Shown here: positions 8,196 to 28,397 of the stretch, in pieces | Layout of the letters: each line of letters starts with the position of its first letter | Position numbering within the stretch: position 1 is the first letter of the stretch | DNA from: a virus | Length of the DNA stretch: 29,436 nucleotides | Strand: one strand, 5' to 3' | Virus record (IMG/VR): IMGVR_UViG_3300027782_000275 | Coordinates: 1-29,436 of that record | Made by a program: the position numbers and the translations under genes | Notes under the pieces: generated by a model | What the model was told of the DNA's origin: nothing | What the model saw: only the letters and a program-made list of their open reading frames with translations | Database searches by the model: none

Positions 8196-11100
8196 TTATG
8201 TCCATGACAAGATAACGATTCCTGAACCACCAGCACCTGCTGCTGATGGACCACCACCACCTCCACCAGAACCTGAGTTTGAAGGCGCAGGAGTTGCCGC
8301 GACTGAAGGATGTGCTCCTCCATTACCACCAATACTTGAACCACCAGTGCCACCGTTAGAAGTAGGAGAATTAACACCACCTCCCCTATCAGTTGCACCA
8401 CCGCCACCAGCAGCATAGAATGTTGGTGCACCTGAAAGAGGTGATGATAATCCAGCACCGCCATTACCACCATTATTGTTTGGAGCACTTGCAGACGGTC
8501 CAGAATTTCCACCTACACCACCAGCACCACCACCGCCACCAGCAAGAGTGATTAATGAAACACCATCATGTCCAGCACCACCAGCATTACCTTGTCCTGG
8601 AGTTCCTGCTCCACCTAGACCGCCAGGAGAAGGAGAAGTTCTATTACCACCACCACCAGAACCACCAGCATTTCCTGTATAAGGTGCAGCGGCTGAAACT
8701 GAACCACCACCGCCACCTATAGCAGTAAATGATGAGAACGATGAATTTGTTCCATTGCTTCCTAATCCTGATGGTGCTCCTCCAGCACCACCCGAACCAA
8801 CAGTGACAGTATATCTTGTACCTAGTGTAACAGGGAATCCTGTACCAGTAAGATATCCACCGCCACCACCACCTCCACCTACATAAGGACCACCGCCACC
8901 GCCGCCACCAGCAACAATAAGATAATCTACTGTAGGAGTCAATGCATTGAAAGAACCAGTTGCAGTATATGTTATTCTTGGAGTTCCAGCAGGTTGTGAT
9001 GCTGAGTGTTTGAGTATCAATATGCCCGAACCACCTGCAGAAGCGGGTGAAGGAGTATTACCACTACCACCGCCACCGCCACCTGTTCCAGGAGTTCCAG
9101 GAGTTTGACCAATAGTTCCTGGCGCACCACCAGCAGGAGCAGGTCCACCTCCGCCACTCCCACCGCCACCATTTCCACCTGCTCCACCATTATAATGTCC
9201 ACCACCACCACCGCCGCCAGCAAGATATACTAATGATCCTAATAAAACGTTTCCTAATCCAGCACCACCTGCGCCACCTATGTTAATGGGTGATGTGCTA
9301 TTATTATTTCCTGCACCACCTGCACCTCCACCACCGCCACCGCCATTAGGCCCACTTTGACCATTCCCACCAGCACTTCCTTGTCCTGGTGTTCCAGGAC
9401 TTCCTGTGCCACTAACGCCACCGTAAGCACCACCACCGCCAGAACCACCAGAAAATGCATTAGGTGCAGCAGAAGTACCACCAGCACCACCGCCTAATGA
9501 TGTGAGTGAAGAGAATGATGAATTTGTTCCATTTGCACCATTGTTGGTACCAGTTGATCCAGTGCCTCCTGCACCGATTGTAACTGTATAAGATTGACCT
9601 GGCGCTACTGAAAATCCTGTTCCTGATCTATAACCCCCCGCACCACCGCCACCGCCTGTTCCACCGCCACCGCCACCTCCAGCAACAAGAACATAATCAA
9701 CCGCAGTAATTCCTGGCGGTGCTGTCCACTCTCCTGATGCTGTAAAAATGTATTTGTCAACAGTTGGTTGTGTCGTAGGAATCGAAACGATGACTATACC
9801 TGAACCACCTGCAAATCCTGGACCACCAGCACCACTAGTGTAACCGCCACCGCCACCACCGCCTCCTGTATTCGGCGTTCCAGCAGTTCCTCCTGCGTCT
9901 GAATTGTTATATGAACCATGTCCACCACCGCCAGTGCCGCCATCACCACCAACGCCATTTTCCATTCCACCACCGCCACCACCAGCATAAGTAACAGGCG
10001 CACCCGATATTGGTGATGCTGTTCCATTACCTCCTGCTGATTTTGCATTCGTGTTTCCAACTTGTCCAGCACCGCCACCGCCACCACCAGCATTTGCTCC
10101 ACCACCACCAGCGTATCCAGCACCGCCATTATTTCCTTGTCCAGGAGTTCCCAATCCACCAGGATCAACTTCATTATTATGAGAAGTTCCACCACCAGAA
10201 CCACCAGTACCACCATTTTCTTCACCTGTGTGTGATCCACCACCACCGCCACCAAATGCTGTTATAGTACCAAATATAGAGTTACTTCCGTTACTTCCAC
10301 GTGCTGTAGTTGTGGACCTAGCACCACCAGCACCAACAACAACTGAAATTACAGAATTTGAACCGACAGGATAACCTGTTCCAGTTAAAAAACCGCCGCC
10401 GCCACCACCACCACCATCAAGTTTTCCACCTCCACCACCACCAGCAACGACAAGATAATCTACTGATGATACATTTGCTGGTGTTATAAATTGACCTGTG
10501 TTAGAAAATGTAAAGATGATGGGAGAAGATGTGGATTGTGTCCATTTGAGAATAATAATTCCTGAACCACCTGCAAATCCTGTTAGATAACCAGCAACTG
10601 GAGAAGAACCACCGCCACCACCACCGCCTGTAAATGATTGACCAGCGGTTCCTATTGTTACACTCCAAGTTCCACCATTACCACCTCCACCTAAACCACC
10701 TTCTCCACCGTTAGATGATGTAATTCCACCACCTGCACGGTCAGTTGCACCTCCACCACCACCTGCATAATAGGTATTATTATATGTTAACCCAATGCCA
10801 CCAATACCACCATTATTGTTTGGTGGAGTATGAGAAGGTCCAGCGTTTCCACCAACAGCACCTGCACCACCACCGCCACCACCTAGAGTGATATTAGTAA
10901 CTCCATCATGTCCAGCACCGCCAGCATTTCCTTGAGTAAGCGTTCCTGCTCCACCTAAACCGCCAGGAGAAGGGGCAGTTCTATTGCCACCACCGCCAGA
11001 ACCGCCAGCATTTCCTGCATGGGGTCCAGTGGCTGAACAAGAACCTCCACCTCCACCAATTGACCAAGGAAGAAATGCGGAACCTGTGCTTGTATTAAAT

Positions 11101-11462
11101 ATGCCTGAATTGGAACCGTTATTGCCAACTGTACTTGCACCAACACTTGCGCCTCCTGCACCAACTGCCATAGTGTATGTTGTTCCTGGCGTTACAGTAA
11201 TTCCTGTACCTGTTTGAAATCCACCCGCACCGCCACCACCACCTACATAACCTCCACCACCAGAACCTCCACCACCAACAATAAGATAATCAACTGAAGA
11301 TACGTCAGTAGGAACTGTCCATGTTTGAGATGCTAAAAATGCTTGTGATACGATACGTGAAGTTGCAGGAGCAGGACCAGGTGCAGCACCACCAGTGCCT
11401 GAACCTATTGCACGGAATCGTTTGAGTGATACTTTGTTTAGTGCTATTCTATTGAGTGACAT
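8196..11462 (-). CDS. Glycine-rich tail adhesin-like protein, four modules (1088 aa)
   Basis: Full-length paralog of the 1096-aa glycine-rich protein that follows it. The N-terminus SLKRFRAIGSGTGG...PGPAPATSRIVSQ corresponds to SLKRFTAPGVGGGG...PAAPTTRIVTQ in that protein. Four modules follow, starting near residue 44, each with a VDYL(I/V)V lead-in, poly-glycine stretches, GTPGQGN and YAGGGGGG pieces, and a GGSGI(V/I)IL closure. The linkers IPTTQPTVDKYIF and ILKHSASQ occur at the same places as in the paralog, and both end ILSWT. The protein is therefore a whole-gene duplicate, not merely a shared domain. No ribosome site is seen, and the ATG lies close behind the small beta gene, so coupling is likely. 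Probable tail adhesin; receptor unknown. Confidence 0.85.
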   Translation of the reverse strand: MSLNRIALNKVSLKRFRAIGSGTGGAAPGPAPATSRIVSQAFLASQTWTVPTDVSSVDYLIVGGGGSGGGGYVGGGGGAGGFQTGTGITVTPGTTYTMAVGAGGASVGASTVGNNGSNSGIFNTSTGSAFLPWSIGGGGGSCSATGPHAGNAGGSGGGGNRTAPSPGGLGGAGTLTQGNAGGAGHDGVTNITLGGGGGGAGAVGGNAGPSHTPPNNNGGIGGIGLTYNNTYYAGGGGGATDRAGGGITSSNGGEGGLGGGGNGGTWSVTIGTAGQSFTGGGGGGGSSPVAGYLTGFAGGSGIIILKWTQSTSSPIIFTFSNTGQFITPANVSSVDYLVVAGGGGGGKLDGGGGGGGGFLTGTGYPVGSNSVISVVVGAGGARSTTTARGSNGSNSIFGTITAFGGGGGGSHTGEENGGTGGSGGGTSHNNEVDPGGLGTPGQGNNGGAGYAGGGGANAGGGGGGAGQVGNTNAKSAGGNGTASPISGAPVTYAGGGGGGMENGVGGDGGTGGGGHGSYNNSDAGGTAGTPNTGGGGGGGGYTSGAGGPGFAGGSGIVIVSIPTTQPTVDKYIFTASGEWTAPPGITAVDYVLVAGGGGGGGTGGGGGAGGYRSGTGFSVAPGQSYTVTIGAGGTGSTGTNNGANGTNSSFSSLTSLGGGAGGTSAAPNAFSGGSGGGGAYGGVSGTGSPGTPGQGSAGGNGQSGPNGGGGGGGAGGAGNNNSTSPINIGGAGGAGLGNVLLGSLVYLAGGGGGGGHYNGGAGGNGGGGSGGGGPAPAGGAPGTIGQTPGTPGTGGGGGGSGNTPSPASAGGSGILILKHSASQPAGTPRITYTATGSFNALTPTVDYLIVAGGGGGGGPYVGGGGGGGGYLTGTGFPVTLGTRYTVTVGSGGAGGAPSGLGSNGTNSSFSSFTAIGGGGGSVSAAAPYTGNAGGSGGGGNRTSPSPGGLGGAGTPGQGNAGGAGHDGVSLITLAGGGGGAGGVGGNSGPSASAPNNNGGNGGAGLSSPLSGAPTFYAAGGGGATDRGGGVNSPTSNGGTGGSSIGGNGGAHPSVAATPAPSNSGSGGGGGGPSAAGAGGSGIVILSWT

Positions 11463-11465
11463 GGT

Positions 11466-11804
11466 TTAAAATGCTTCGATGCCAAATGCTGAGAATGCTA
11501 AAAGAGATGAGTTTGCGTTTACTGATAATCTAGAACCTGCGGCAAGAGTAATGCCAAGTGACATTGTGATTGAATCAAGACCAGGCACATTGATACCATA
11601 AGCAATGTAATTACTATTTGCTGTTACATTTCCTGTAGTGTTTGCTGCAATTCTAAACGCACCACCATTGGCAGCATTTTCATCTAAGTTAGCAATAGTA
11701 ATTGACGATATAATTGCCGAGTTACCTGCTGGAACTGTGTATAAAGTAGTCAATACATTCGCTGATGGATTTGATTGACCTAAAATTTTATATGCTCTTG
11801 CCAT
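11466..11804 (-). CDS. Small beta-rich structural protein, paralog 2
   Basis: A 112-aa paralog of the proteins at 7615-7944 and 28404-28751. It opens MARAYKILGQSNPSANVLTTLYTVPAGNSAIIS, has a central AYGINVPGLDSITMSLGITLAAGSRL segment, and ends AFSAFGIEAF. The first ten residues (MARAYKILGQ) are identical to those of the copy at 28404. The function is unrecognised, and its length and strand pattern suggest a single beta domain. It has a late-promoter-like AATAAATA box 26 bases upstream and a GAGAG-type ribosome site. It ends three bases before the 1088-aa glycine-rich gene, repeating the small-beta plus glycine-rich pairing. Confidence 0.85.
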   Translation of the reverse strand: MARAYKILGQSNPSANVLTTLYTVPAGNSAIISSITIANLDENAANGGAFRIAANTTGNVTANSNYIAYGINVPGLDSITMSLGITLAAGSRLSVNANSSLLAFSAFGIEAF

Positions 11805-12229: not shown

Positions 12230-13426
12230 TCATGTTACAAAACTACTTGTACCAGTGAAAGTGTGTACCGTATACCCACCTGCTGAAGTAATTGTTCCTC
12301 CTGTTGCTCTTTGACCTCCAAGATAACGAACAATCACAATGCCTGAACCACCAGCGATAAATGCTGCCCAAGAAGTATTATTACCTTGTCCACCATTGCC
12401 ACCACCACCACCACCCGTATTGGTTGTACCTGGTGTTGGTTGATTCGAATTTGAATTATAACTTCCGTTACCACCACCACCCAATCCACCATAGCCTAAA
12501 GCAGCAGTTGGCCAAACACCACCACCACCACCACCGCCGTAATATGTTGAGGTACCTGATATTGTTGATGCAAATCCTATACCACCATTACCTGCTATAC
12601 TACCTGATGCAGCGGCTTGTCCTACAGCACCAGCACCACCGCCACCACCGCCAGCATGACTATTTTGGCCATTACCACCATTATTTCCTTGACCAGGAGT
12701 TCCTAGTGCTGCACTAGGAAAAGCAGCATCTCCATTACCACCTGCTCCAGACCCACCTGATGATGCTGCTGTAGTTTGATAGTTTCCACCACGACCACCA
12801 CCAATAGCAGTTAAACTAAAAGCAGTAGAGTTATCACCATTAGCACCAACAACACTTGTAGGGTTACTTCCACCAGAACCGCCAGCACCAACTCCAATTG
12901 GATATGTGGTTCTTGGTGACAGAGTTAATCCTGATCCTGTCAATAGTCCACCAGCACCACCTCCACCAGCATGCCAAACTCCACCTGCACCACCACCAGC
13001 AACAATTAAATAATCAACTTCTAATACATCAGATACTACGTTGGTCCAACCAGCCGTAGGCATATATGATTCAAGTCTACTTAATGTGGTATTGTATCTT
13101 AATGATCCATTTGAAGATGACGTTGGTCGTTGTGCTGTAGTTCCAACAGATACGGCAAAATATCCAGTTGATGTTGTGTTTGCATCATAAGAACTACCAC
13201 CACCACTTCCACCAGAACTTTGTACTGTAAATCGTTGATTGGTAAGTCTACTTGCTGGAGAATCATTCATCAAAAAGAAATCTTCCAACGCATTTGGTTC
13301 TGCTAATTTTACATTTGTAATTGAACCATTGGCAATATTGTTTGAACTAACAGCACCAACACCAATCTTATCGCCTGTTACAGCACCAGTTGCTATACGA
13401 CCCGATTCGACTTTTTGTTCTGGCAT
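12230..13426 (-). CDS. Hybrid tail fibre: decapeptide repeats + connector + one glycine-rich module (398 aa)
   Basis: A mosaic fibre protein. Residues about 5-44 are decapeptide repeats (VESGRIATGA, VTGDKIGVGA, VSSNNIANGS, ITNVKLAEPN), followed by the closing motif ALEDFFLMNDSP. Residues about 80-130 match a common tail-fibre connector (GTTAQRPTSSSNGSLRYNTT...GWTNV). From about 133 a single glycine-rich module runs to GGSGIVIVRYLGG. The last ~25 residues, ending YTVHTFTGTSSFVT, look like the first beta strand of another module, so the module may be closed by a C-terminal strand or a second module may have been lost. It has a strong ribosome site TGGAGGT, and the start overlaps the preceding decapeptide gene (TAATG). 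Likely a virion fibre subunit. Confidence 0.84.
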   Translation of the reverse strand: MPEQKVESGRIATGAVTGDKIGVGAVSSNNIANGSITNVKLAEPNALEDFFLMNDSPASRLTNQRFTVQSSGGSGGGSSYDANTTSTGYFAVSVGTTAQRPTSSSNGSLRYNTTLSRLESYMPTAGWTNVVSDVLEVDYLIVAGGGAGGVWHAGGGGAGGLLTGSGLTLSPRTTYPIGVGAGGSGGSNPTSVVGANGDNSTAFSLTAIGGGRGGNYQTTAASSGGSGAGGNGDAAFPSAALGTPGQGNNGGNGQNSHAGGGGGGAGAVGQAAASGSIAGNGGIGFASTISGTSTYYGGGGGGGVWPTAALGYGGLGGGGNGSYNSNSNQPTPGTTNTGGGGGGNGGQGNNTSWAAFIAGGSGIVIVRYLGGQRATGGTITSAGGYTVHTFTGTSSFVT

Positions 13427-13694: not shown

Positions 13695-14345
13695 CTATGG
13701 ATTCTGATTCAGTGCTGTTTGAAAATTAGAGTTTGATGCCAATACCGTATATACATTTGCAGCAGTCTTAATAATATTAAACGAGTATGTGTCAATCGAT
13801 TCTTGTTGTGTTGTTGCATAACCAGGCGCAGAGTTACCTAACCAAAATGGTACTTGCAATGCACTATCAATATACACATTAGCACGATATTTTGTAGCAC
13901 CTTGCTTCAAAAGAATAGCAGAAGAAACTGATTGACCAATAGAAAGTAAACTATTCAGATTGCCACCATTGGAATTATTTGCTCTAAAATTAAACGTTAC
14001 ATTCGCTGTGGTATTTGAAGTAAAATAATAAACGGTATTGTTAGACACATCGATATTTACATTACCACCAACTCCAGTGGTGTAGATATTGGCGGTTTCT
14101 AAAACACGAATTAAGGATAGATTTAAATTTGATGCCAGAGTGTTACTTGATACTGCACCAACACCAATATCATTACCAAGAACCGCACCATCAACAATAT
14201 TGTTTGAATTGATTACGCCTGTTCCTAATAAATTACCTGTGATCTGACCAGCAACAATGTTGTTACCACGAATGGCATTGTCTGCTACTTTTAAACCAGT
14301 AACGGATGTGTTTGCAATTCTATTTGAGCCAATTCTTTGTCCCAC
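13695..14345 (-). CDS. Fibre protein: decapeptide shaft plus shared C-terminal beta domain (216 aa)
   Basis: A two-part protein. Residues about 5-72 are decapeptide repeats (VTGLKVADNA, IRGNNIVAGQ, ITGNLLGTGV, INSNNIVDGA, VLGNDIGVGA, VSSNTLASNL). Residues about 75-216 form a beta-rich domain, RVLETANIYTTGVGGNVNID...LKQGATKYRANVYID...FWLGNSAPGYATTQQ...TVLASNSNF, which matches the last ~150 residues of the 1703-aa protein almost block for block. The start is GTG (14345-14343) behind a strong GGAGG ribosome site. The domain may be a fibre tip or an attachment knob that lets two different shafts share one partner (inference). I do not recognise a named family for it. Confidence 0.83.
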   Translation of the reverse strand: MGQRIGSNRIANTSVTGLKVADNAIRGNNIVAGQITGNLLGTGVINSNNIVDGAVLGNDIGVGAVSSNTLASNLNLSLIRVLETANIYTTGVGGNVNIDVSNNTVYYFTSNTTANVTFNFRANNSNGGNLNSLLSIGQSVSSAILLKQGATKYRANVYIDSALQVPFWLGNSAPGYATTQQESIDTYSFNIIKTAANVYTVLASNSNFQTALNQNP

Positions 14346-14347
14346 TA

Positions 14348-15646
14348 TTAACCTCCAAATACAATTGACATAGCAATTGCTTTACCTGTTGTTGCTGCTG
14401 CATTTGCCGTTACGAATGCACCATTGGCATAAATTCCTGCTGAGTTAGCGGTATTAAATCCTGCATTCGCTTGATTCAATGCCAATTCAATTTTATTATT
14501 TACTGTTGATTGCAGTTTATTAAATGTAATACTACCATCATCTATCACATAAACATTTGCAGCATTACTAAGGGTTGTTACTGAAATGTATTCACCATTA
14601 CTTGGTGTGGTTAAAAATGTAATTGTGTTAGAAGAAGGAATAACACTATATGTTGTTGGTGATTGTAGAACACCATCAATAGCAACAATTAATGCTAGAT
14701 TACTTGTTGGTCTATAACCCAAATCAAAAGAAGGCGTGGTACCATTAGCAGTAGTTTCAAAGTTTCTTACTGTGACATTTGCTGCAACCAATTGAATAGC
14801 AACTGTATTTACGTTTGTGTAAAAGGTAACTACACGAATTAATTCACCGTTTGTTGGTACTTCATCAAGAATAATTGCACTGTTACTTGACGAAACTCCA
14901 TATGCAGTTAGCGGTTGAACTACACCATCAATAGTTACTAATAGTTTTTCTTTTGGTGCAGGATCAAATCCAACATTGAATGTACTGGTTGTTCCGTTAG
15001 ATGTAGTTTCAAATACCGATACTGCAACATTCTGTGTAGCATAATTGATTACAAATGGATTGACTTTTGAGTATCCAACAACACGAATGTTTTCGTTTAA
15101 TCCAGGTGGAGTATTAAATGATATTGAACTGTTTTGATTGTTAGTTGTATACGCAGAATCTGGTTGAACAATACCACCAATAGTAACAAAAATATTGTTG
15201 GCGGTGTATGGTGTATATCCTAAAGCAAAACTTTGTGTTGTTCCATCACCAACAAAGTTGTTTGCATTGACAACGGCACCAATAGAATTTGCCGCATCAA
15301 CAGCATATGGCGTAACTGTTTTATATCCTGCTACACGAACCACTTCTGAAATAGGTGGTGGCGAAGTAAACGAAATTGTATTGTTACCAGAATTAATTAC
15401 ATAATCATTCTCGCTCTGAACAATGCCACCAATCGAAACAAACACCGCACTATTGCCACCAATTGGAGAAAACTGTAAATCAAATGTTGACGTTGTACCA
15501 TCTGCCGTAGTAGTGAATGATGAAACCTCACTGTTTGCTAATGTTACTTGTTGTAATTTCCATCCATACCCGTTATAAATCCAAGTCTTACTTCCTAAAG
15601 TATAAGACTGATTTGTAGTTGGACTGCTAGGAAAATTTAAAGGCAT
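14348..15646 (-). CDS. Tail fibre-like protein with four DGxxQ beta repeats (432 aa)
   Basis: The N-terminus NFPSSPTTNQSYTLGSKTWIYNGYGW (residues 4-29) is a motif common at the start of phage tail-fibre proteins. Four homologous ~65-residue beta domains follow at about 43-108, 130-193, 212-276 and 296-358. Each reads TxxGTTxxFxLxxxP...(F/L)VxIxGxxQ...Y.V...(N)xIxF...P...E.I.V. The C-terminal tail has a short ANAGF/ANGAF segment like the 1703-aa rod and ends TTGKAIAMSIVFGG, a terminal motif I recognise from other T4-like phage tail proteins. A related single domain makes up the 81-aa protein at 24946-25191. It has an AGGGA-type ribosome site, and the gene overlaps nothing but sits six bases from the rod gene. 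Probable virion fibre component; receptor unknown. Confidence 0.83.
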   Translation of the reverse strand: MPLNFPSSPTTNQSYTLGSKTWIYNGYGWKLQQVTLANSEVSSFTTTADGTTSTFDLQFSPIGGNSAVFVSIGGIVQSENDYVINSGNNTISFTSPPPISEVVRVAGYKTVTPYAVDAANSIGAVVNANNFVGDGTTQSFALGYTPYTANNIFVTIGGIVQPDSAYTTNNQNSSISFNTPPGLNENIRVVGYSKVNPFVINYATQNVAVSVFETTSNGTTSTFNVGFDPAPKEKLLVTIDGVVQPLTAYGVSSSNSAIILDEVPTNGELIRVVTFYTNVNTVAIQLVAANVTVRNFETTANGTTPSFDLGYRPTSNLALIVAIDGVLQSPTTYSVIPSSNTITFLTTPSNGEYISVTTLSNAANVYVIDDGSITFNKLQSTVNNKIELALNQANAGFNTANSAGIYANGAFVTANAAATTGKAIAMSIVFGG

Positions 15647-15652
15647 ATTCTA

Positions 15653-18600
15653 TTATCCCTGACCTGGTTGACCTTGGGCCAAACCAAAGTTACTATTTGC
15701 TGCTAACACACTGTATGTATTTGCTGCTGTTTTAAATACGACAAATGAATAAACATCAATCGATTGTTGTTGTGTGGTTGCATAATCTGGTGCAGAATTG
15801 CCTAACCAATAAAGGGTTTGCAACACACCATCAATGTGTAAGTTTGCCTTATATCTAGTTGCACCTTGTTTCACTGCAAGTGCTACTGTAGATGCTTGAC
15901 CAATGTTTACCAAACTATCATAGATGCCACCTGCATTACCATTTGCTCTCAGATTGAATGTGACATTGGCAGTTGTGTTTGCTGAGAAAAAATAAGAAGT
16001 ATTATTTCCAATATCAATGTTGACATTACCACCAACAGCAGTAGGATAAATGTTAGCAGTTTCAAGTACCTGAATAATATTGATTGCTAAGTTCGAACCA
16101 AGTCTATTGGATGTAATCGTTCCGTTTGCGGTGTTTGCTTGATTAAATGCTGATTGTGCATGTGTTATACCAGAGTTTGCTTGTATGAATGCAGCATTTG
16201 CTTTATCGTATGCAGCATTTGCCTGACTGAATTGTGCAGTTACATTGGCAGTGACAAATGTATTTGTCGTTACGTTTGAACTACTAGGTCCAAACTCTAC
16301 CCACTGAAAACTATCATTGTCTTTAAAGTATGTGTATTCAGTACCATCATTTGAATCAATCCAAAGATGGCCATTTGCATTTGCGGTTGCTGGTGGTGCA
16401 GTAGCATAGGTAACGACAACACTACCACCATTTGCAGCGGCAGCATTCGCAGTATTCGCAACAATAAAAGCAGCATTTGCGTGAAAGAATGCAGATTGTG
16501 CATGAAGTATACTAGCATTTGCTTGAATGAATGCACCGTTAGCATAGACACCTGCTGAACCACCACCAAAGTTTTCGTAAGTAGTTCCATCATTTGTAAA
16601 CTGCCATGAGGTTGTTCCTTCATTCCAGAGCAAGTAAACATTTGCAGAAGAACCACGGTCAACTTCAATACCTGCATTCATCGTTGGTGCTGATGCTTGA
16701 TTGATTGCAGCATTCAATGTGATGATGTTGTCTGCAATCAGAACTGTCTGTGTATTGGCATATACTGTATTGCCAATAATAACAAGATTACCAGTAATAG
16801 TAACATCACCAGTAATCTGACCACCAACGTTTGCATTCAGTGAATTATTGGCACGAATGAATGCAGTTTGAGCATGTGCTATACCAGCATTTGCTTGAAT
16901 GAATGCAGCATTCGCAGTATTAAATGCTGGTTGTACTTGCGGTGCTACATTATTTGCGGAAATAAAAGCAGCGTTAGCATGATTAAATGCTGACTGTGCA
17001 TGGAATATTCCAGAGTTTGCTTGGATAAATGCTGTTTGTGCATGGAATATACCAGCATTCGCTTGGATAAATCCTGCGTTGGCATGATTGTATGCAGTTT
17101 GTGCATGAAATATACCAGCATTGGCCTGTACAAATGCAGTCTGTGCATGAAATATTCCAGCGTTTGCTTGAATGAATGCTGACTGTGCGTGGAATATTGC
17201 ACTATTCGCTTGAATGAATCCACCATTTGCATGATTGTATGCCGTTTGAGCATGTGCTATACCAGCGTTTGCTTGGATAAACGCCGACTGTGCATGTGCT
17301 ATACCAGCGTTTGCTTGGATGAATGCAGACTGTGCGTGAAATATTCCTGCATTTGCTTGGATGAATGCAGACTGTGCGTGAAATATTCCTGCATTTGCTT
17401 GGATGAATGCCGACTGTGCATGAAGTATACCAGCGTTTGCTTGAACGAATGCCGACTGTGCATGAAGTATACCAGCGTTTGCTTGAACAAATGCCGACTG
17501 TGCATGAAGTATACCAGCGTTTGCTTGAACGAATGCCGCATTTGCTTTGGCAAAACCAGCATTAGCATTAGCATATGCATTATTGGCCCAAAGCATTAAG
17601 TCTATAGTACCATTTGCCGCAAAAACATAATTCGCAAAAATGGCATTAGCACCAGTAATGTCACCAGCAGGTCCAGATGTTTGAATTGCATCTGCTACCA
17701 CATTACCAATAACAACAACGTTACCTGTTACTGTGCCACCAACGTTTGCATTCAGCGAATTGTTGGCACGAATGAATGCAGATTGTGCATGTAATATTGC
17801 TGCATTTGCTTGGATGAATCCAGCGTTGGCATGATTATAAGCAGTTTGAGCATGTGCTATTCCAGCATTTGCTTGTATAAATGCCGACTGTGCGTGAAGT
17901 ATACCAGCATTTGCTTGAATGAATGCTGACTGTGCGTGAAGTATACCAGCATTTGCCTGAATGAATCCTGATTGTGCATGAAGTATTCCTGCATTTGCTT
18001 GAATGAAACCTGATTGTGCATGAAGTATACCAGCATTCGCTTGGATAAATCCTGCGTTTGCCTGATTGTATGCAGTTTGTGCATGTGCTATTCCAGCATT
18101 TGCTTTTATAAATGCAGAGTTGGCATATGATTCAGCAGCATCGGAACCTATGTTAAAATAATTTGTGCCGTCATTAGTAACTGTCCACTTTAGTCCACTT
18201 TCATTCCACAACAAATAAACATTTGCAGAAGAACCACGATCAATCTCTAGGCCTGCATTTAGTATAGGTGAAGATGCTTGATTGATTGCAGCATTCAGGG
18301 TTAATATATTATCTGCAATTAATACTTGAGTAGTATTTACATACGTTGTGTTGCCTGTTACAAAAAGATTGCCTGTAATAAAAACATCACCAGTAACTGT
18401 GCCGCCAACGTTTGCGCTGAGAGAATTGTTCGCTCTTGTGAATCCTGCATTAGCATGATTAAATGCCGACTGTGCATGAAGTATGCCAGCGTTCGCTTGT
18501 ATGAATGCGGTCTGTGCATGAAATATACCAGCGTTTGCCTGAATGAATGCGGCATTCGCTTGGTTGTATGCAGTTTGAGCATGTGTTATTCCAGCATTTG

Positions 18601-20764
18601 CTTGAATGAATGCAGTCTGTGCATGAAATATTCCAGCGTTTGCTTGAATGAATCCAGAATTCGCTTGGTTATATGCAGTTTGTGCGTGTGCTATACCAGC
18701 ATTTGCTTGAATGAATGCCGACTGTGCATGAAGTATGCCAGCATTTGCTTGAATGAATGCAGATTGTGCGTGTAGTATTCCTGCGTTTGCTTGGATGAAT
18801 CCAGCGTTGGCATGATTATAAGCAGTTTGTGCGTGGAATATTCCTGCGTTCGCTTGTATGAATGCAGTCTGTGCGTGGAATATGCCTGCATTGGCCTGAA
18901 CGAATGCGGTCTGTGCATGAGATATACCAGCGTTTGCTTGTGTAAACGCAGACTGTGCATGAAATATTCCAGAGTTCGCTTGTATAAATGCTGTTTGTGC
19001 ATGGAATATACCAGCGTTTGCCTGAATGAATGCCGCATTTGCTTTGGCAAAAGCACCGTTAGCATTTCCATATGCATTGTTAGCATACATGAACAAATCA
19101 ATTGTGCCATTTGCAGCAAAGATATAGTTGGTAAAGATGGCATTAGCACCAGTGATGCTACCATTTGAACCTGATGTTCTTAGTGTGTTAGATGTTACAT
19201 CACCAGTGACTACTACATTCTGTGTGAACGTGACGTTACCCGTAACAACTCCACCATTGTTAGCATCTAATGAGTTGTTAGCACGAATGAATGCAGACTG
19301 TGCATGATATATTCCAGAATTTGCTTGAATAAATCCTGCGTTTGCATGATTAAATGCCGACTGTGCATGGAATATACCAGAATTTGCTTGTATAAATGCT
19401 GCTTGTGCATGGAATATTCCAGAGTTTGCTTGAATAAATCCAGCATTTGCTTGCCTAAACGCAGACTGTGCATGTGCTATTCCAGCGTTTGCCTGAGTGA
19501 ACGCGGATTGTGCATGAAATATTCCAGCGTTTGCCTGAGTGAACGCGGATTGTGCATGAAATATTCCAGAGTTCGCTTGTGTGAATGCTGCTTGTGCATG
19601 TGCTATTCCAACATTTGCTTTTAAAAATGCAGCATTGGCATATGATTCAGAAGCATCAGAACCTATGTTAAAATAATTTGTACCATCATTTGTAACCGCC
19701 CACTTATCAATCGTTTCATTCCAAAGAACATAAACATTTGCAGAAGAACCACGATCAATTTCTATACCAGCATTTAGTAACGGAGCAGATGCTTGATTGA
19801 TTGCTGCATTCAGTGTTAGAATATTATCAGCAATCAATACCTGAGTTGTATTTACATACGTTGTGTTGCCTGTAACACTAAGGTTACCTGTAATGAAAAC
19901 ATCACCAGTAACTGTGCCGCCTACGTTTGCACTAAGAGAATTATTTGCTCTTGTGAACCCAGCATTCGCATGATGGAACGCAGACTGTGCATGAAATATA
20001 CCAGAGTTTGCTTGGATGAATGCAGCATTTGCTTGATTGTATGCAGTTTGTGCGTGTGCTATTCCAGCATTTGCTTGGATGAATCCTGTGTTGGCATGAT
20101 TGTATGCTGTTTGAGCATGAAATATTCCAGCATTGGCCTGTGCAAATGCAGTTTGTGCATGAAATATACCAGCATTCGCTTGAGTAAATGCAGTTTGTGC
20201 ATGAAATATACCAGCGTTCGCTTGAGTAAATCCTGCGTTGGCATGGTTGTATGCCGTTTGAGCATGTGCTATTCCCGCATTTGCTTGTATGAATGCAGAC
20301 TGTGCATGAAATATACCAGAGTTCGCTTGAATGGATGAGGCATTTACTTCTCTAAACGCAGATTGTGCATGAAGTATTCCAGCATTTGCTTGAATGAATG
20401 CAGTTTGTGCGTGAAATATAGCAGCATTGGCCTGAATGAATCCTGCATTGGCATGATTGTATGCTGTTTGAGCATGAAATATTCCAGCATTGGCCTGTAC
20501 AAATGCAGTTTGTGCGTGGAATATTGCAGCATTTGCTTGAGTAAATCCTGACTGTGCGTGTGCTATTCCAAGATTTGCTTTTTCAAATGCTTGTTGTGTA
20601 AATATAACTGCACTTAAACCACCAATCTCAATAACACCAGTGCCTGCAGGTGTACCAATGAACAAAGTATTACTTACAAAAGAGTAAGCAGGTTCACCTA
20701 CATTTAATCTTGTCGGAGCAGCAGTTACTAACGACTGCTTTAATTGGATAACTGTATTTGCCAT
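15653..20764 (-). CDS. Giant repetitive tail fibre-like rod protein (1703 aa)
   Basis: The N-terminus (1-48; IQLKQSLVTAAPTRLNVGEPAYS...LFIGTPAG) resembles the Mtd N-terminal-type domain found at the start of many phage fibres. The body consists of 14-residue repeats of the form xQANAGIFHAQ(T/S)AFI; I count about 53 HAQ motifs. Five beta domains interrupt them, in alternating types A-B-A-B-A. Type A (VTGDVFITGN...LIADNILTLNAAIN...NAGIEIDRGSSANV...WNE...VTNDGTNYF) is a known tail-fibre module, and type B is shorter (NAIF.NY.FAANGTIDL). Near the end lies a HLWIDSNDGTEYTYFKD...WVEFG connector, then a C-terminal domain shared with the 216-aa protein. The repeats probably form a helical or coiled rod. 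Likely a long virion fibre. Only a weak ribosome site is seen, nine bases after the preceding gene. Confidence 0.86.
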   Translation of the reverse strand: MANTVIQLKQSLVTAAPTRLNVGEPAYSFVSNTLFIGTPAGTGVIEIGGLSAVIFTQQAFEKANLGIAHAQSGFTQANAAIFHAQTAFVQANAGIFHAQTAYNHANAGFIQANAAIFHAQTAFIQANAGILHAQSAFREVNASSIQANSGIFHAQSAFIQANAGIAHAQTAYNHANAGFTQANAGIFHAQTAFTQANAGIFHAQTAFAQANAGIFHAQTAYNHANTGFIQANAGIAHAQTAYNQANAAFIQANSGIFHAQSAFHHANAGFTRANNSLSANVGGTVTGDVFITGNLSVTGNTTYVNTTQVLIADNILTLNAAINQASAPLLNAGIEIDRGSSANVYVLWNETIDKWAVTNDGTNYFNIGSDASESYANAAFLKANVGIAHAQAAFTQANSGIFHAQSAFTQANAGIFHAQSAFTQANAGIAHAQSAFRQANAGFIQANSGIFHAQAAFIQANSGIFHAQSAFNHANAGFIQANSGIYHAQSAFIRANNSLDANNGGVVTGNVTFTQNVVVTGDVTSNTLRTSGSNGSITGANAIFTNYIFAANGTIDLFMYANNAYGNANGAFAKANAAFIQANAGIFHAQTAFIQANSGIFHAQSAFTQANAGISHAQTAFVQANAGIFHAQTAFIQANAGIFHAQTAYNHANAGFIQANAGILHAQSAFIQANAGILHAQSAFIQANAGIAHAQTAYNQANSGFIQANAGIFHAQTAFIQANAGITHAQTAYNQANAAFIQANAGIFHAQTAFIQANAGILHAQSAFNHANAGFTRANNSLSANVGGTVTGDVFITGNLFVTGNTTYVNTTQVLIADNILTLNAAINQASSPILNAGLEIDRGSSANVYLLWNESGLKWTVTNDGTNYFNIGSDAAESYANSAFIKANAGIAHAQTAYNQANAGFIQANAGILHAQSGFIQANAGILHAQSGFIQANAGILHAQSAFIQANAGILHAQSAFIQANAGIAHAQTAYNHANAGFIQANAAILHAQSAFIRANNSLNANVGGTVTGNVVVIGNVVADAIQTSGPAGDITGANAIFANYVFAANGTIDLMLWANNAYANANAGFAKANAAFVQANAGILHAQSAFVQANAGILHAQSAFVQANAGILHAQSAFIQANAGIFHAQSAFIQANAGIFHAQSAFIQANAGIAHAQSAFIQANAGIAHAQTAYNHANGGFIQANSAIFHAQSAFIQANAGIFHAQTAFVQANAGIFHAQTAYNHANAGFIQANAGIFHAQTAFIQANSGIFHAQSAFNHANAAFISANNVAPQVQPAFNTANAAFIQANAGIAHAQTAFIRANNSLNANVGGQITGDVTITGNLVIIGNTVYANTQTVLIADNIITLNAAINQASAPTMNAGIEVDRGSSANVYLLWNEGTTSWQFTNDGTTYENFGGGSAGVYANGAFIQANASILHAQSAFFHANAAFIVANTANAAAANGGSVVVTYATAPPATANANGHLWIDSNDGTEYTYFKDNDSFQWVEFGPSSSNVTTNTFVTANVTAQFSQANAAYDKANAAFIQANSGITHAQSAFNQANTANGTITSNRLGSNLAINIIQVLETANIYPTAVGGNVNIDIGNNTSYFFSANTTANVTFNLRANGNAGGIYDSLVNIGQASTVALAVKQGATRYKANLHIDGVLQTLYWLGNSAPDYATTQQQSIDVYSFVVFKTAANTYSVLAANSNFGLAQGQPGQG
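17321..17404. repeat. Exact tandem duplication of a 42-bp unit
   Basis: Two 42-base units, 17321-17362 and 17363-17404, are identical base for base, although most units in the array differ at several sites. This points to a recent duplication or gene conversion. Confidence 0.9.
17409..17534. repeat. Three near-identical 42-bp tandem units
   Basis: Units 17409-17450, 17451-17492 and 17493-17534 match except for a single g/a difference in the middle copy (gaacaaat against gaacgaat). They encode three VQANAGILHAQSAF-type repeats. Confidence 0.88.
19481..19564. repeat. Exact tandem duplication of a 42-bp unit
   Basis: Units 19481-19522 and 19523-19564 are identical; they encode consecutive TQANAGIFHAQSAF-type repeats. 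This is independent of the duplications near 17.4 kb. Confidence 0.9.
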
Positions 20765-21006: not shown

Positions 21007-21342
21007 TTACCTCGTAACGGATGGTAATACAACTGCGGTACCTTCTACTACACGGGTCACAAGACCACTGGCAGTATTTGCAATTGTCAGATCATATACA
21101 TAACGACCTGCTGAAAGGAGAGCAGTATTTGCTGCGGTCATTGAAAGAGTAATCTCACCATTAGCATTACCAGTAATGGTTGCTGTCATGGTGTTTGCAG
21201 AAGTGGAATAGTAGGATTTACGTAATTGAGAAGATGCTCTATAATAATAAAGATTTAATGCATCACCTTGAGTATCATTGACAGAAACAGTTGAATTTAA
21301 ATTCGCACCCTGTTCTATTGTAATTTCTACATAAGCAGCCAA
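21007..21342 (-). CDS. Small beta-sandwich phage structural protein (111 aa, TTG start)
   Basis: A 111-aa protein that opens MAAYVEITIEQGANLNSTVSV and ends YVYDLTIANTASGLVTRVVEGTAVVLPSVTR. The alternating strands and the AGRYVYDL motif resemble small Ig-like/BppU-type phage domains common beside tail-fibre genes. The start is a TTG codon (21342-21340), supported by a strong AAGGAG ribosome site six bases upstream and by the in-frame MAAYVEITIEQG-type opening. A late-promoter-like CTAAATA box lies 21 bases upstream of the start and just after a strong terminator, so this is the first gene of the rod-containing unit. The role is unknown, possibly a baseplate or fibre connector. Confidence 0.8.
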   Translation of the reverse strand: MAAYVEITIEQGANLNSTVSVNDTQGDALNLYYYRASSQLRKSYYSTSANTMTATITGNANGEITLSMTAANTALLSAGRYVYDLTIANTASGLVTRVVEGTAVVLPSVTR

Positions 21343-21834: not shown

Positions 21835-21854
21835 TATTTAGTTATTTATTTATG
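21835..21854 (-). promoter_or_regulatory. Cluster of late-promoter-like boxes
   Basis: Three overlapping or adjacent minus-strand matches (CATAAATA, AATAAATA, CTAAATA) span the stop codon of the 899-aa glycine-rich gene and lie 31-50 bases upstream of the 123-aa MAHF gene, which has a strong AGGAG site. At least one is likely a functional late promoter; CTAAATA at 21835-21841 has the best spacing. Confidence 0.55.
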
Positions 21855-24549
21855 TCCATTTGAGGATGACAATTCCAGAACCGCCTAAAGCACCTGTGCC
21901 AGATCGTCCACCACCACCACCACTGCCTGTACTTAATGTTCCAAGCAAACCATTATTTCCAGGCGTACTGCCGTTACCGCCACCACCAGTACCACCAGTA
22001 CCACCAGTTGATGCTCCACTACCACCACCACCGCCAGCATAAGTTACTGGCGTACCCGAATAAGGTGATGCTAATCCTGCACCACCATTGCCACCTTTAG
22101 GAGCAGTTCCAGCATCACCAACAGCACCAGCACCTCCACCACCGCCAGCATTAAAATCACCCGAGTAAGAATTGCCACCATTATTTCCTTGTCCTGGTGT
22201 TCCTGCACCGCCTGTTGCGCCCTGTGAAGCAGCACCTCCACCAGATCCACCACTAAATCCAGCACCACCACCTCCAGGAGGAAGAAAACCTCCACCAGCA
22301 CCACCACCCAAAGAAGTGATAGAAGCAAACACGGAATTAGAACCATTTGTACCGTTGTTTGTTGGTGAATATGGAGATCCAATATTAGTTCCACCACCAC
22401 CACCAGCACCCACTACAATAGGGATTGTTTGTGCAGAAGATACTCCATAACCTGTCCCCGTTCTAAAACCACCAGCACCGCCACCTCCGCCAGTATGACC
22501 TCCACCACCTCCACCACCTCCAATAACAAGATAATCTACTGTCGATACACCAGTAGGTACTGTAAATAATCCTGAACCTGTAAATACTGCAAGTTTATTT
22601 TGTGTCGCAGGAATAGATATGATGATTACACCTGAACCGCCAGTGCCTCCAGCAGAAGCAAAGTTTCCTGCACTTCCACCTCCAGAACCAGTGCTTTGTC
22701 CTCCAGCACCACCTGTAGCACTTGAACTTGGTGATGTTCCACCATCTCCTCCATTATTATAACCTACACCACCTCTTCCTTGTCTACTTGTATTAGTGCC
22801 ATCACCACCGCCGCCGCCACCTCCGGGTCCACCAGAACCTGCTCTTGTATGATACGCAGGTTGTCTTGGATCACCACCATAAGGTGCTGAGAAATCTACA
22901 CCACCGCCGCCACCGCCACCAGCAAATGCAGTATTTGATCCTGTGATTGTAGTAAATATTCCCATACCGCCATTACCACTTGTTAATCCTTGAGCGGGTG
23001 TTGTTGCGATACCTGAATACCCAGCACCGCCAGCACCACCACCGCCACCACCATTACCTGTCCAGAAAGACATTCCTGTACCGCCAGCAAATCCTTGACC
23101 CGGCACTCCTGTGCCACCTGCACCAGGACTACCGTCAGGTGCTCCACCACCACCTGAACCACCATCTTTACCTAATGAAGTACCACCTGCACCATTGTAA
23201 GAACCACCACCACCGCCACCAAAAGCAAAGAATATTCCTGAATTGCTATTTGCATGATATGAATTAGAAGTATTTGCTAAAGTCCATGCAGAGTTTGAAA
23301 CTGCAAATATGGTATTTGAACCATTAGTTCCTCTAGCATTACCACCGTTTGGACCCGATGCGCCTGCACCGCCTGCACCAATAACGAATGAATATGCTTG
23401 ACCTGGACCTACTGGATAACCTGTACCTTGAAGCAGACCACCAGCACCACCGCCACCGCCATGTTGATAACCGCCACCGCCACCTCCAGCAATAACAAGA
23501 TAATCGATTGTTGTTATACCAGTAGGTACAATAAATTCGCCTGTGTTTGCAAATACAAATGATGCATTTGGAGGAACAACATAATAACTTAGGATAACAA
23601 TACCTGAACCGCCAGCACCACCTCCATATGCTGTACCACCAGGATCGGTATATCCACCACCACCTCCACCACTTCCTTGATTTGTATTTGCAGAACCTCC
23701 TACTGATGCTGCTGGTGTTGACAAACCATTACCAGCACCAAACATAGGATTTCCATTGCCACCTTGACCAAATGGTTGTGGTGTTCCTGGACCATAAACA
23801 CTTCCACCACCACCGCCCGCATAACCTGTATTAGAACCTGTTATCGATGAAAATATACCTATACCACCATTACCAGAATCATTTCCTGTAGCACCAGCAC
23901 CACCAGCACCACCACCTCCACCAGAACGATCAAAAGGAGAAGAAGGACCGCCATTAGGAGCACCTCGTCCACCATTATTGCCTTGTCCAGGAGTGCCTAA
24001 TCCACCAAGACCACCCGCAGGATATCTACCACCTCCACCACCAGAACCACCAGACATGCCATTACCAGCATCTGTGCCACCACCACCACCGCCACCATTT
24101 GACCAAGAAGTTAATGTTGCACCACTACTTGTGACAAATATTCCAGAGTTTGTTCCGTTTGCGCCAGTTCCGCCAGATGAAGCCGCACCTCCAGCACCTC
24201 CAGAACCAATAGCAATTGTATAAGATGTTGCTGGAGTTACAGGTAATGAAGTTCCCTGAACAACACCACCACTACCACCTCCACCGCCAATACGACCACC
24301 ACCGCCGCCTCCGCCACCAACAACAAGATAATCGACGGTTAATACGCCAGATGGCGGTGTCCATGTAGTGGAACCTTGAAATACTTGTATACCTAGAACT
24401 TGACCTGAACTAACTTCTTGTGGCCATAAACCAGCAAGTTTGAATATTAGTGCCTCATTAAGTGAATAGATACCTGTAGCAGCACCAGTTGTACCACCAG
24501 TGGTTAGATTTCTTGCACCAATAATACCACCGTTGAAACCTTTTGCCAT
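21850..24549 (-). CDS. Glycine-rich tail adhesin-like protein, three modules (899 aa)
   Basis: The N-terminus (about 1-55) is distinct from the other glycine-rich genes: GGIIGARNLTTGG...GIYSLNEALIFKLAGLWP, a lead motif frequent in marine phage fibre proteins. Three glycine-rich modules follow. Their lead-ins are FQGSTTWTPPSGVLTVDYLVV, FANTGEFIVPTGITTIDYLVI and FTGSGLFTVPTGVSTVDYLVI. Each module contains 5-8-glycine runs, GTPGQGNNGG- or GVPGQGFAGG-type pieces, and a GGSGIVIL/GGSGVIII closure; the protein ends ILKWT. It is likely a polyglycine-II-type adhesin on the tail. The start overlaps the stop of a 127-aa gene (TAATG), with a GAAGAG-type ribosome site. The stop lies next to promoter-like boxes for the next gene. 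Confidence 0.85.
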   Translation of the reverse strand: MAKGFNGGIIGARNLTTGGTTGAATGIYSLNEALIFKLAGLWPQEVSSGQVLGIQVFQGSTTWTPPSGVLTVDYLVVGGGGGGGGRIGGGGGSGGVVQGTSLPVTPATSYTIAIGSGGAGGAASSGGTGANGTNSGIFVTSSGATLTSWSNGGGGGGGTDAGNGMSGGSGGGGGRYPAGGLGGLGTPGQGNNGGRGAPNGGPSSPFDRSGGGGGAGGAGATGNDSGNGGIGIFSSITGSNTGYAGGGGGSVYGPGTPQPFGQGGNGNPMFGAGNGLSTPAASVGGSANTNQGSGGGGGGYTDPGGTAYGGGAGGSGIVILSYYVVPPNASFVFANTGEFIVPTGITTIDYLVIAGGGGGGYQHGGGGGAGGLLQGTGYPVGPGQAYSFVIGAGGAGASGPNGGNARGTNGSNTIFAVSNSAWTLANTSNSYHANSNSGIFFAFGGGGGGSYNGAGGTSLGKDGGSGGGGAPDGSPGAGGTGVPGQGFAGGTGMSFWTGNGGGGGGAGGAGYSGIATTPAQGLTSGNGGMGIFTTITGSNTAFAGGGGGGGVDFSAPYGGDPRQPAYHTRAGSGGPGGGGGGGDGTNTSRQGRGGVGYNNGGDGGTSPSSSATGGAGGQSTGSGGGSAGNFASAGGTGGSGVIIISIPATQNKLAVFTGSGLFTVPTGVSTVDYLVIGGGGGGGGHTGGGGGAGGFRTGTGYGVSSAQTIPIVVGAGGGGGTNIGSPYSPTNNGTNGSNSVFASITSLGGGAGGGFLPPGGGGAGFSGGSGGGAASQGATGGAGTPGQGNNGGNSYSGDFNAGGGGGAGAVGDAGTAPKGGNGGAGLASPYSGTPVTYAGGGGGSGASTGGTGGTGGGGNGSTPGNNGLLGTLSTGSGGGGGRSGTGALGGSGIVILKWT

Positions 24550-25667: not shown

Positions 25668-28397
25668 TTAACCACCATCATAAGGTTGTCCTAGAGTGAA
25701 TGATCCAGCACCTGCAAATCTTAGTATCCTCTGGCCACTAACTTCTGAATATGTTCCACCAACAAGACTTTGTACGTTAGCATATTCAACCGGATAACTA
25801 TAGATAGCAATTCCAGAACCACCAGCACCTCCACCAGCACCACTAAACGCAGAAGCACCACCACCACCACCCCCGCCAGTGCCTGCTGTACCAGATTGTC
25901 CACCAAAACCAACACCGTTGCCACCACCATTAGCAGCACCTCCAGGTGATCCTACTGGTCCTCCATTTGTACCACCAATACCGCCTTCACCACCAAAAAC
26001 TCTAGTTGGTGCTGTGCCAAAGTGTACTGTCATTCCACCACCGCCACCGCCACCAGAATAAGTTACTGGAGTTCCAGTTATTGAAGAAGCGACTCCTTTT
26101 CCACCTGCCCCACCATCCCAGATTTGAGTGCCGTTGGTACCTGCATATCCTGATCCGCCACCTCCACCGCCACCAGAGTAGTATACTTGTCCTGCAGGGT
26201 TTGTAAATCCTGGACCACCGCCAGAATAACCACCAGCAGTTCCGGGTGATCCACCACCTGCACCGCCAGCATTTGTGTAACCAGAAGGCCAAGCACCCAT
26301 ACCTCCACCGCCACTTGCGCCAGAACCACCAGCACCTCCTATAACATTTATTCCTGGAGAAATTGCTTGACCACCACCATAACCACCACCTTCTGCCCAA
26401 CCACTTAGTTGAGTACCTGTAGATGTATTAAATGCTCCAGTGTTTGAACCCATAACACCACCTGCACCACCTGCACCAACAACTACAGTATATTGACCCG
26501 CAGCATTAGTGAAATCAATTGTGCCTGTTCTAAAAGCACCGCCACCGCCACCGCCACCGCCAGCAAAGTAAGCATCGCCAGCACCTTGTCCACCACCGCC
26601 ACCACCGCCAACATAAAGATAAGATACGACAGTGGGTCCTGCTGGATCGCCATATGCGGGTCCAGCAGTTACAGTTAATGCTCTACGAGATGCTGTTGAA
26701 AAATCTAAAGTCATGCTACCAGAATCTACAAATTGATGTACAAGCCAGCCAGCATCAATTTTTGTTTTAATTGGTGTTCCTGTGGTTGTTGTATTACCAA
26801 ACACACTAGGATATCTGATTATAACAATTCCAGAACCGCCACGGCCACCCTGCCTAAAACCAGCACGACCAGGCCAATTTCTTGTACCTGTGTCTGTTGG
26901 CCAAAGTGGTGCATATGCATGTGGAGGAGCATTTGCATCTGGACTCCACAAATTTCTTGGTTCTGCTAAATTTGAAATAAAAGGACCACTTTCTCCGTTT
27001 GGTCCAAGGTCACCCCAATCACGATAGTATGAACTATTATATACACCTCCTCCACCACCGCCACGATTATTTAAAGCATTTGTTTGCGATCCAACTCCAG
27101 GATATCGATAACCGCCAGTTGGATAAGGACCAGATTCACGAGGACCATAACCTATTTTTCCACCAAATGGTGGGAGCGGAAAAGCACCTCGAGGTCCAGT
27201 TGGTCCTTCACCTGCGCCACACAAGTTACCATTACCATCATATATTGTATCACCAACACCAGTGCCTCCAGGATTTTGACCTGCTTGATATATTTCATTG
27301 CCACCACCTTTTACATTTCCGTATCCAGCACCATTACTTGGATTGCCTTTAGGACCATTGGTCGGTGAACTTGAACAACCGCCTCCACCGGCAGCATACT
27401 CTCTATTAAATCCAAGTATGGATGAATTATAACCACCACCACCTTCTCCACCGTCACCTTGTGGTCCAGGAGTATACCCGGAACCACCACCGCCGCCACC
27501 ACCATAACCACGTGGATTCATTTTACCTTTTATTTCTCTAGGAGTTACTGTTTGTGGTGCAGGTGATATGCGATATGTGCCCGAACCACCAACGCCAGGC
27601 GAAAATGAAGGTGTAACTAATGCGGCAGTTATTACTGTTCCTTGAAGCCAACCTGTTGGATTTGAATATGGTCCACCCTGTAATGTCATTCCGACTTGAA
27701 AATTACCGTCTGGAAAATTACTTCTTGGTCCATCTAACGTTAATACATCACCAGAAATTGAACCTGATATACATGTTGATTCGGATCCGTCATTACCACC
27801 TCGTCCATTTGATTCAGTATTTGTGCGATTTGGATTACCATCGTTACCAGTGACTTTAGCCATGCCACCTTGCCCACCTTGATTTGATCTGGATCGTGTA
27901 GACTCATCACGAAGGCCTCCTCCACCTCCACCAGCAACAGATTCTGGATTACGATTTGCCATAGATGCGTTTGGTGGATCCCATTCTTTTCCACCACCAC
28001 CACCGCCTAAAGCAGTAAGAGAGAATCCGTTAGGGCCAGACATTGCAAAGGTAGTAGCATTACCATCATTACCACGGGCATCTTGATTGTTACCTGTTAC
28101 TGCACCGATACCCATCGAGAATACACTAGCACCAGTTAATCCAATTGCTACATTTCCACCTGTAGTTATACCATCAAGTGATCCAATCCAAACACCGCCT
28201 CCACCACCACCCCCGCCGCCGCCGCCACCTCCGCCGCCGCCACCTCCGACAACGAGATATTCGAGAACGAATCTTTCTTGTTCGCCTCTGACTACGCCAA
28301 GTATGGATTTCCGACGAGTTAAATAACTACCAACTTTATGGAAGCCACTTAATAATTTAATTCTATTGCCAGTTGTACTAACTCTTCGTATTGTCAT
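25668..28397 (-). CDS. Glycine-rich tail adhesin-like protein with Gly18 run (909 aa)
   Basis: A glycine-rich adhesin-like protein that is more divergent than the others. After a basic N-terminus (RRKSILGVVRGEQERF) and the VLEYLVV strand comes a run of 18 consecutive glycines (residues 51-68). The first module (about 45-540) is unusually long. It holds a non-glycine insert at about 207-290 (ISGSISGDVLTLDG...VGMTLQGG...GGSGTYRISPAPQTVT), which resembles a small phage beta repeat. It closes with GGSGIVIIRYPS. A linker (KIDAGWLVHQF) leads to a second module that starts VVSYLYVGGGG and ends GGSGIAIYSYP, then a C-terminal ILRFAGAGSFTLGQPYDGG. No ribosome site is seen; the ATG is six bases from the previous stop. 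Probable virion adhesin. Confidence 0.83.
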   Translation of the reverse strand: MTIRRVSTTGNRIKLLSGFHKVGSYLTRRKSILGVVRGEQERFVLEYLVVGGGGGGGGGGGGGGGGGGVWIGSLDGITTGGNVAIGLTGASVFSMGIGAVTGNNQDARGNDGNATTFAMSGPNGFSLTALGGGGGGKEWDPPNASMANRNPESVAGGGGGGLRDESTRSRSNQGGQGGMAKVTGNDGNPNRTNTESNGRGGNDGSESTCISGSISGDVLTLDGPRSNFPDGNFQVGMTLQGGPYSNPTGWLQGTVITAALVTPSFSPGVGGSGTYRISPAPQTVTPREIKGKMNPRGYGGGGGGGSGYTPGPQGDGGEGGGGYNSSILGFNREYAAGGGGCSSSPTNGPKGNPSNGAGYGNVKGGGNEIYQAGQNPGGTGVGDTIYDGNGNLCGAGEGPTGPRGAFPLPPFGGKIGYGPRESGPYPTGGYRYPGVGSQTNALNNRGGGGGGVYNSSYYRDWGDLGPNGESGPFISNLAEPRNLWSPDANAPPHAYAPLWPTDTGTRNWPGRAGFRQGGRGGSGIVIIRYPSVFGNTTTTGTPIKTKIDAGWLVHQFVDSGSMTLDFSTASRRALTVTAGPAYGDPAGPTVVSYLYVGGGGGGGQGAGDAYFAGGGGGGGGAFRTGTIDFTNAAGQYTVVVGAGGAGGVMGSNTGAFNTSTGTQLSGWAEGGGYGGGQAISPGINVIGGAGGSGASGGGGMGAWPSGYTNAGGAGGGSPGTAGGYSGGGPGFTNPAGQVYYSGGGGGGGSGYAGTNGTQIWDGGAGGKGVASSITGTPVTYSGGGGGGGMTVHFGTAPTRVFGGEGGIGGTNGGPVGSPGGAANGGGNGVGFGGQSGTAGTGGGGGGGASAFSGAGGGAGGSGIAIYSYPVEYANVQSLVGGTYSEVSGQRILRFAGAGSFTLGQPYDGG
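28194..28247 (-). repeat. Trinucleotide tract encoding Gly18
   Basis: Eighteen consecutive GGN codons (residues 51-68 of the 909-aa protein), read on the plus strand as a (c-c-n) tract with runs of ccg. It is the longest pure glycine stretch in the window and is likely prone to in-frame slippage. Confidence 0.9.

Follow-up and report, generated by a model that had tools for sequence, protein, structure and literature searches.

A long heptad-repeat fibre gene, most likely for a tail or baseplate fibre, in an uncultured T4-like phage

We report a gene of a T4-like phage that, with a probability of roughly 0.78, encodes a large structural fibre, most probably of the tail or baseplate, built as a trimeric coiled coil with inserted beta domains. 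The window, that is the whole stretch of DNA analysed here, is a full linear virus record of 29,436 bases, and its source is an uncultured T4-like (Pantevenvirales-type) tailed phage. Long phage fibres govern the reach distance and stiffness toward the host. In this case, a single polypeptide appears to build a rod of about the same length as the T4 long tail fibre out of one heptad repeated ~145 times, following sequence rules (near-zero charge, Asn or Gln in nearly every heptad) that depart from those of the textbook coiled coil. Genes for such AN-heptad fibres are common in metagenomes, yet neither a Pfam family nor a solved relative was found for them. Coiled-coil phage fibres with beta insertions are of a known kind; the expansion of the heptad variant HAQ is so far unique to this fibre.

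Layout of the fibre gene

Nearly all large plausible genes of the window are located on the minus strand, as are all features of the window described below. The fibre gene spans positions 15653–20764, with an ATG start and zero internal stops, which confirms the 1703-aa rod gene that a previous sequence-only reading had placed there. The N-terminal domain (residues 1–52, positions 20609–20764) is kept in 23 deduplicated relatives and is the probable virion-attachment end. Heptad block 1 (residues 60–276, 19937–20587), consisting of in-phase heptads, is followed by beta domain A1 (residues 274–377, 19634–19945), heptad block 2 (residues 373–498, 19271–19648) and beta domain B1 (residues 496–570, 19055–19279). 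The next three blocks, likewise of in-phase heptads, each precede a beta domain: block 3 (residues 558–781, 18422–19093) leads to A2, the sister of A1 (residues 779–882, 18119–18430), block 4 (residues 878–1003, 17756–18133) to B2, the sister of B1 (residues 1001–1069, 17558–17764), and block 5 (residues 1057–1308, 16841–17596) to A3 (residues 1306–1409, 16538–16849), which differs in descent from A1 and A2. The A-B-A-B-A order of five beta domains had been recognized before and was recovered at all five places. Heptad blocks 6 (residues 1405–1439, 16448–16552) and 7 (residues 1512–1546, 16127–16231) flank domain D (residues 1446–1493, 16286–16429), a 48-aa insert that is present in other fibre genes too. 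The protein ends with a C-terminal domain assigned to phrog_5906 (residues 1555–1703, 15656–16102). Domain D and the C-terminal domain are non-repeat elements that the previous reading did not contain.

Within the C-terminal domain, AF2 predicted a beta domain at residues ~1571–1694 with a pLDDT of ~90, a candidate for the tip of the fibre. The C-terminal domain is common among predicted viral proteins, with matches in BFVD down to E 5e-14. A Foldseek search of the PDB with the C-terminal segment reached a best E of 0.2 and did not find a clear solved relative. Structural comparison of the same segment yielded the capsid spike of Pseudomonas phage Pa223 (Z 6.4) and T4 gp9 (Z 5.4), values too weak to assign the domain to either family. 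A second copy, with 62% identity over 155 aa, forms the end of a 216-aa gene product encoded two genes downstream of the fibre gene (13695–14345). Judged from the sequences, this second copy suggests that fibre genes exchange tips.

The heptad repeat and its predicted fold

The fibre is built on a heptad, [FIY]-x-[HQ]-A-[NQ]-x-x, present in ~145 copies. The motifs HAQ, QAN and HAN occur 53, 57 and 12 times, respectively, the first count agreeing with the previous estimate of about 53 HAQ repeats. AN/AQ pairs at a spacing of exactly 7 residues number 135, whereas 1000 shuffled sequences averaged 3.3 such pairs and never exceeded 11, and A[NQ] is kept in 143 of 145 in-phase heptads (seven arrays with 1015 residues in total); therefore, the basic period is 7. 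The 14-residue unit assumed in the sequence-only reading does equal two heptads, FxQANxG followed by IxHAQxA, but it is not the true period.

An AF2 monomer model, calculated with alignments of relatives, contains continuous helices at residues 228–277, 370–502 and 559–598, of which the second covers heptad block 2 as a single helix with a pLDDT of mostly 70–91. Two further helices were modelled in the C-terminal segment (residues ~1404–1443 and ~1506–1552). For the A and B domains, the model was poor (pLDDT <76, partly <50). Because each modelled block forms one continuous helix and the heptads stay in phase throughout a block, the fibre repeats are predicted to be an alpha-helical coiled coil, a known fold type. 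The fold of the repeat had previously been considered not obvious from known families; the AF2 helices together with the heptad phase largely correspond to a known simple coiled coil, and we rejected the novelty of the fold. The suggested lining of the rod interior with histidines was discarded as well, since His occupies heptad position 3, which lies outward with a core at positions 1 and 4 or at positions 1 and 5.

The hydrophobic moment of the heptad is oriented at -19 degrees, close to the value for a core in which a and d are positions 1 and 4 (-26 degrees). In orthologues, Asn/Gln at position 5 is kept in 92–100% of the in-phase heptads and Ala at position 4 in 73–85%, in a comparison in which the selection of runs favours both positions equally. 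In three more distant relatives Ala at position 4 is better kept than Asn/Gln at position 5. If conservation marks the core, the heptad register could be positions 1 and 5, and Asn would then form a polar ladder within the core. Only 18 of the 1015 residues in the heptad arrays are charged, which is unusual for a coiled coil and counts against the interpretation as a coiled-coil fibre. Tentatively, and with more doubt than confidence, we propose that the AN/AQ heptad may define a so far undescribed type of coiled coil, very long and nearly uncharged, in which Asn/Gln, the residue kept best, possibly forms an uninterrupted polar ladder in place of salt bridges, within the core or next to it. 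The HAQ heptads might then be a lineage-specific remodelling, with Asn changed to Gln in many alternate heptads and a surface His every ~14 residues. Searches of PDB sequences with the fibre protein and three profiles returned zero solved-structure matches, no Pfam family was found for the heptad repeat, a fold search with the model of the repeat and A domain returned helix matches only (best Z 5.8), and no published description of the HAQ/AN heptad repeat was found in the open-licence literature.

Two other explanations of the repeat were weighed against a coiled coil maintained by selection. The repeat could be a beta-solenoid or another novel fold of 14-residue units with His inside; its sequence has hardly any charge and abundant Gly, Asn, Ser and Thr residues, and among the lags tested the identity autocorrelation peaks at lag 14 (0.375 vs 0.176 at lag 7). 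We regard this as very improbable in view of the continuous helices modelled in block 2 and the C-terminal segment, an unbroken 7-residue phase, insertions in multiples of 7 (21-residue steps are present besides those of 14), and the same phase in relatives that possess the heptad with almost no HAQ. Even slightly less credible is that the array arose as a by-product of DNA slippage or recombination and is under little functional constraint. The tandem arrangement of the repeats and the widely varying order and number of modules among relatives would fit such an origin, but 50 of the 53 repeat units of 42 bases are distinct at the DNA level and the similarity between neighbouring units hardly exceeds that between distant ones (0.804 vs 0.786), which disfavours recent slippage. 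Third-position identity among units is only 61% where the amino acid is the same. Because synonymous sites have diverged while the HAQ/QAN residues were held, selection acts on the protein; the heptad array is old.

The Ile codon preceding HAQ is ATA in all 53 units but in only 15 of the 92 other Ile codons of the fibre gene (Fisher p 3e-26, a nominal value since the units are related). In relatives, ATA was found at this site in 20 of 29 cases, compared to 124 of 505 at a control site.

Relatives and duplication of the A-B super-unit

In a scan of IMG/VR for relatives, 80 of 236 were kept; a second scan with the HAQ pattern gave 28 stretches. The orthologues in IMG/VR (L005–L014, L022, L025, L098, L106, L111 and others) resemble the window in their neighbourhood, N-terminus, A and B domains and long AN arrays, which extend to up to 112 consecutive heptad steps. 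They differ in the order and number of beta domains, which vary widely, and in possessing only 1–3 HAQ heptads per gene, compared to 53 in the window fibre. The latter also has 31 back-to-back HAQ doublets, a pattern with zero matches in the other viral contigs or genomes scanned, from which its own or near-identical records were possibly left out. Because of the low HAQ count in the relatives and the restriction of doublets to this gene, we conclude that an existing minor heptad was expanded in the lineage of the window virus. A large number of identical homologues had been named previously as a possible objection to the distinctness of the repeat; many homologues do exist, but none has the HAQ array. 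The suggested search for HAQ/QAN repeats in metagenomic phage proteins recovered the heptad at this low frequency in relatives and the doublets in none of the other contigs or genomes scanned.

The AN/AQ heptad array was not seen in the structural regions read of phages HTVC008M, Mosig, Sf-CH8, ACG-2014i and C48C1. A tblastn search of cultured phages with the repeat segment of a relative gave zero matches under low-complexity masking, which made BLAST insensitive. Pfam did not find the Mtd_N domain (PF18454) in the window fibre and found it weakly in the orthologue L007 (E 0.026, below the cut-off); a profile comparison gave a probability of 1.2%. Other AN-heptad proteins of the set have a clear Mtd_N (E ~1e-11 to 1e-12). 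In one related fibre with a clear Mtd_N start (L036, 5115–11460), a TLAQ/TVAQ Gln heptad is expanded, with 40 Gln at position 5. Asn-to-Gln heptad variants have thus apparently been expanded more than once.

The spacing from A1 to A2 and from B1 to B2 is exactly 505 aa in both cases, while A2 and A3 are 527 aa apart. Amino acid identity is 90% between A1 and A2, 70% between A3 and either of them and 70% between B1 and B2. A tree built from 98 A domains of the window virus and its relatives places A1 and A2 in a clade with a support of 0.955 that includes one domain of L008, and A3 together with the A domain of L112 and the last A domains of L005 and L006. B1 and B2 form a sister pair (support 0.927), although a distant one. 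These relationships support one duplication of an A-B super-unit of 505 aa, not two; a second duplication was rejected as A3 branches apart from A1 and A2. The super-unit duplication proposed earlier therefore stands for A1-B1 and A2-B2 and fails for A3, which clusters with the A domain that comes last in other viruses. Because the L008 domain falls inside the A1/A2 clade, this duplication may predate the split from the L008 lineage.

Genomic neighbourhood and place of the fibre

The fibre gene is part of a common neighbourhood with the order fibre-assembly homologue, 76-aa gene, fibre, 432-aa gene, C-terminal-domain genes, gp13, gp14, gp15, gp16, Dps-like ferritin and gp17, which was found whole or up to the contig end in ~30 IMG/VR contigs. 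The conserved 111-aa assembly homologue (21007–21342), two genes upstream of the fibre gene, matches phrog_3304 'L-shaped tail fiber protein assembly'. In the C-terminal part of the 432-aa fibre-like gene (14348–15646), Pfam matched the N-terminal domain of the T7 tail fibre. The fibre gene is accompanied by structural genes for the virion of a tailed phage, with gp13–gp17 downstream and fibre-like and glycine-rich genes around it. A partial terminase is ~60% identical to terminases of myophages of Synechococcus and Pelagibacter. Annotated tail-fibre-like proteins share both the A domain and the C-terminal domain; the A domain matches such proteins in BFVD (E 1.6e-6 to 6e-4, identity ≤52%) as well as cyanophage tail-fibre genes.

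In the proposed fibre, three parallel chains would coil around one another as alpha helices over ~145 heptads, and the trimer would probably gain stability from the beta domains A, B and D that interrupt the rod. Attachment to the virion would be through the conserved N-terminus, with the C-terminal beta domain as the distal end in contact with the host. The modelled helix length implies an elongated fibre: 1015 residues at 0.1485 nm correspond to ~151 nm, with the beta domains extra, and the T4 long tail fibre, made of four proteins, measures ~145 nm (PMC5537660). Tail-fibre and receptor-binding genes rank among the most variable loci of marine phages (PMC3909814), and a variable and modular shaft within a trimeric tail or baseplate fibre is the best-supported interpretation. 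The exact location on the virion is presumably the tail or baseplate; the neck is possible.

Alternatively, the protein could be a neck whisker or collar fibre that functions like T4 fibritin (wac), forming a segmented coiled-coil trimer where head and tail meet and either sensing conditions or holding other fibres. Downstream of the gene, a few fibre genes precede gp13-gp14-gp15-gp16-gp17, and wac of T4 is located in the gp13–gp17 region. Loops, moreover, interrupt the trimeric coiled coil of T4 fibritin (PMC3797505), an architecture similar to the one predicted here. We nevertheless consider this assignment improbable, as no fibritin match was obtained in Pfam, PHROGs or the PDB-sequence search, the beta and C-terminal domains are common to tail-fibre-like proteins and a tail-fibre assembly homologue is encoded nearby. 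In addition, T4 fibritin is much shorter, the window protein being 3–4 times longer, and has small loops instead of beta domains of ~70–100 aa.

The modular tail-fibre-like proteins of Kyanoviridae and uncultured Caudovirales, e.g. those of Synechococcus phages ACG-2014h/i and S-H9-1 and of phage C48C1 (BFVD A0A6J5NH40, V5UTB4 and A0A873WKI0), have the A beta domain in common with the window fibre, and the C48C1 fibre gene occupies the same place upstream of the neck genes gp13-gp14. However, ACG-2014i and C48C1 are without the AN/AQ array in the regions read, and the others were matched via the A domain only. The T4 long tail fibre (gp34/35/36/37) is similar in predicted length and as a thin, trimeric rod with small domains, but is composed of four proteins and showed no sequence similarity to the window fibre. 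The solved part of gp34 consists of modules with short three-helix bundles, not of a long coiled coil (PMC5537660). The stalks of trimeric autotransporter adhesins such as SadA likewise alternate coiled coil with small beta domains. In these stalks, polar residues of the coil are conserved. These adhesins are, however, anchored in the bacterial outer membrane, and a sequence match to the window fibre was absent; a fold match to SadA (Z 4.6 with an rmsd of 68 Å) is meaningless. Pfam gave no match to a C-terminal beta-barrel membrane anchor of the YadA type at the phrog_5906 C-terminus.

A Dps/ferritin-like gene (610–1044; PF00210, E 3e-22; phrog_3636 'DNA binding protein') sits between the genes for the small and large terminase subunits, a position kept in most related contigs at 48–69% identity. 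Five glycine-rich genes (4325–7615, 8196–11462, 12230–13426, 21850–24549 and 25668–28397) look like further fibre or adhesin proteins of the cassette. Gly_rich_2 (PF21722) was detected above the cut-off at 4325–7615 (four stretches) and 12230–13426, and below it at 25668–28397. Three paralogous genes of ~110 aa (7615–7944, 11466–11804 and 28404–28751), with starts such as MARAYKILGQ and MPRNYTILGQ, are each located close to one of the glycine-rich genes.
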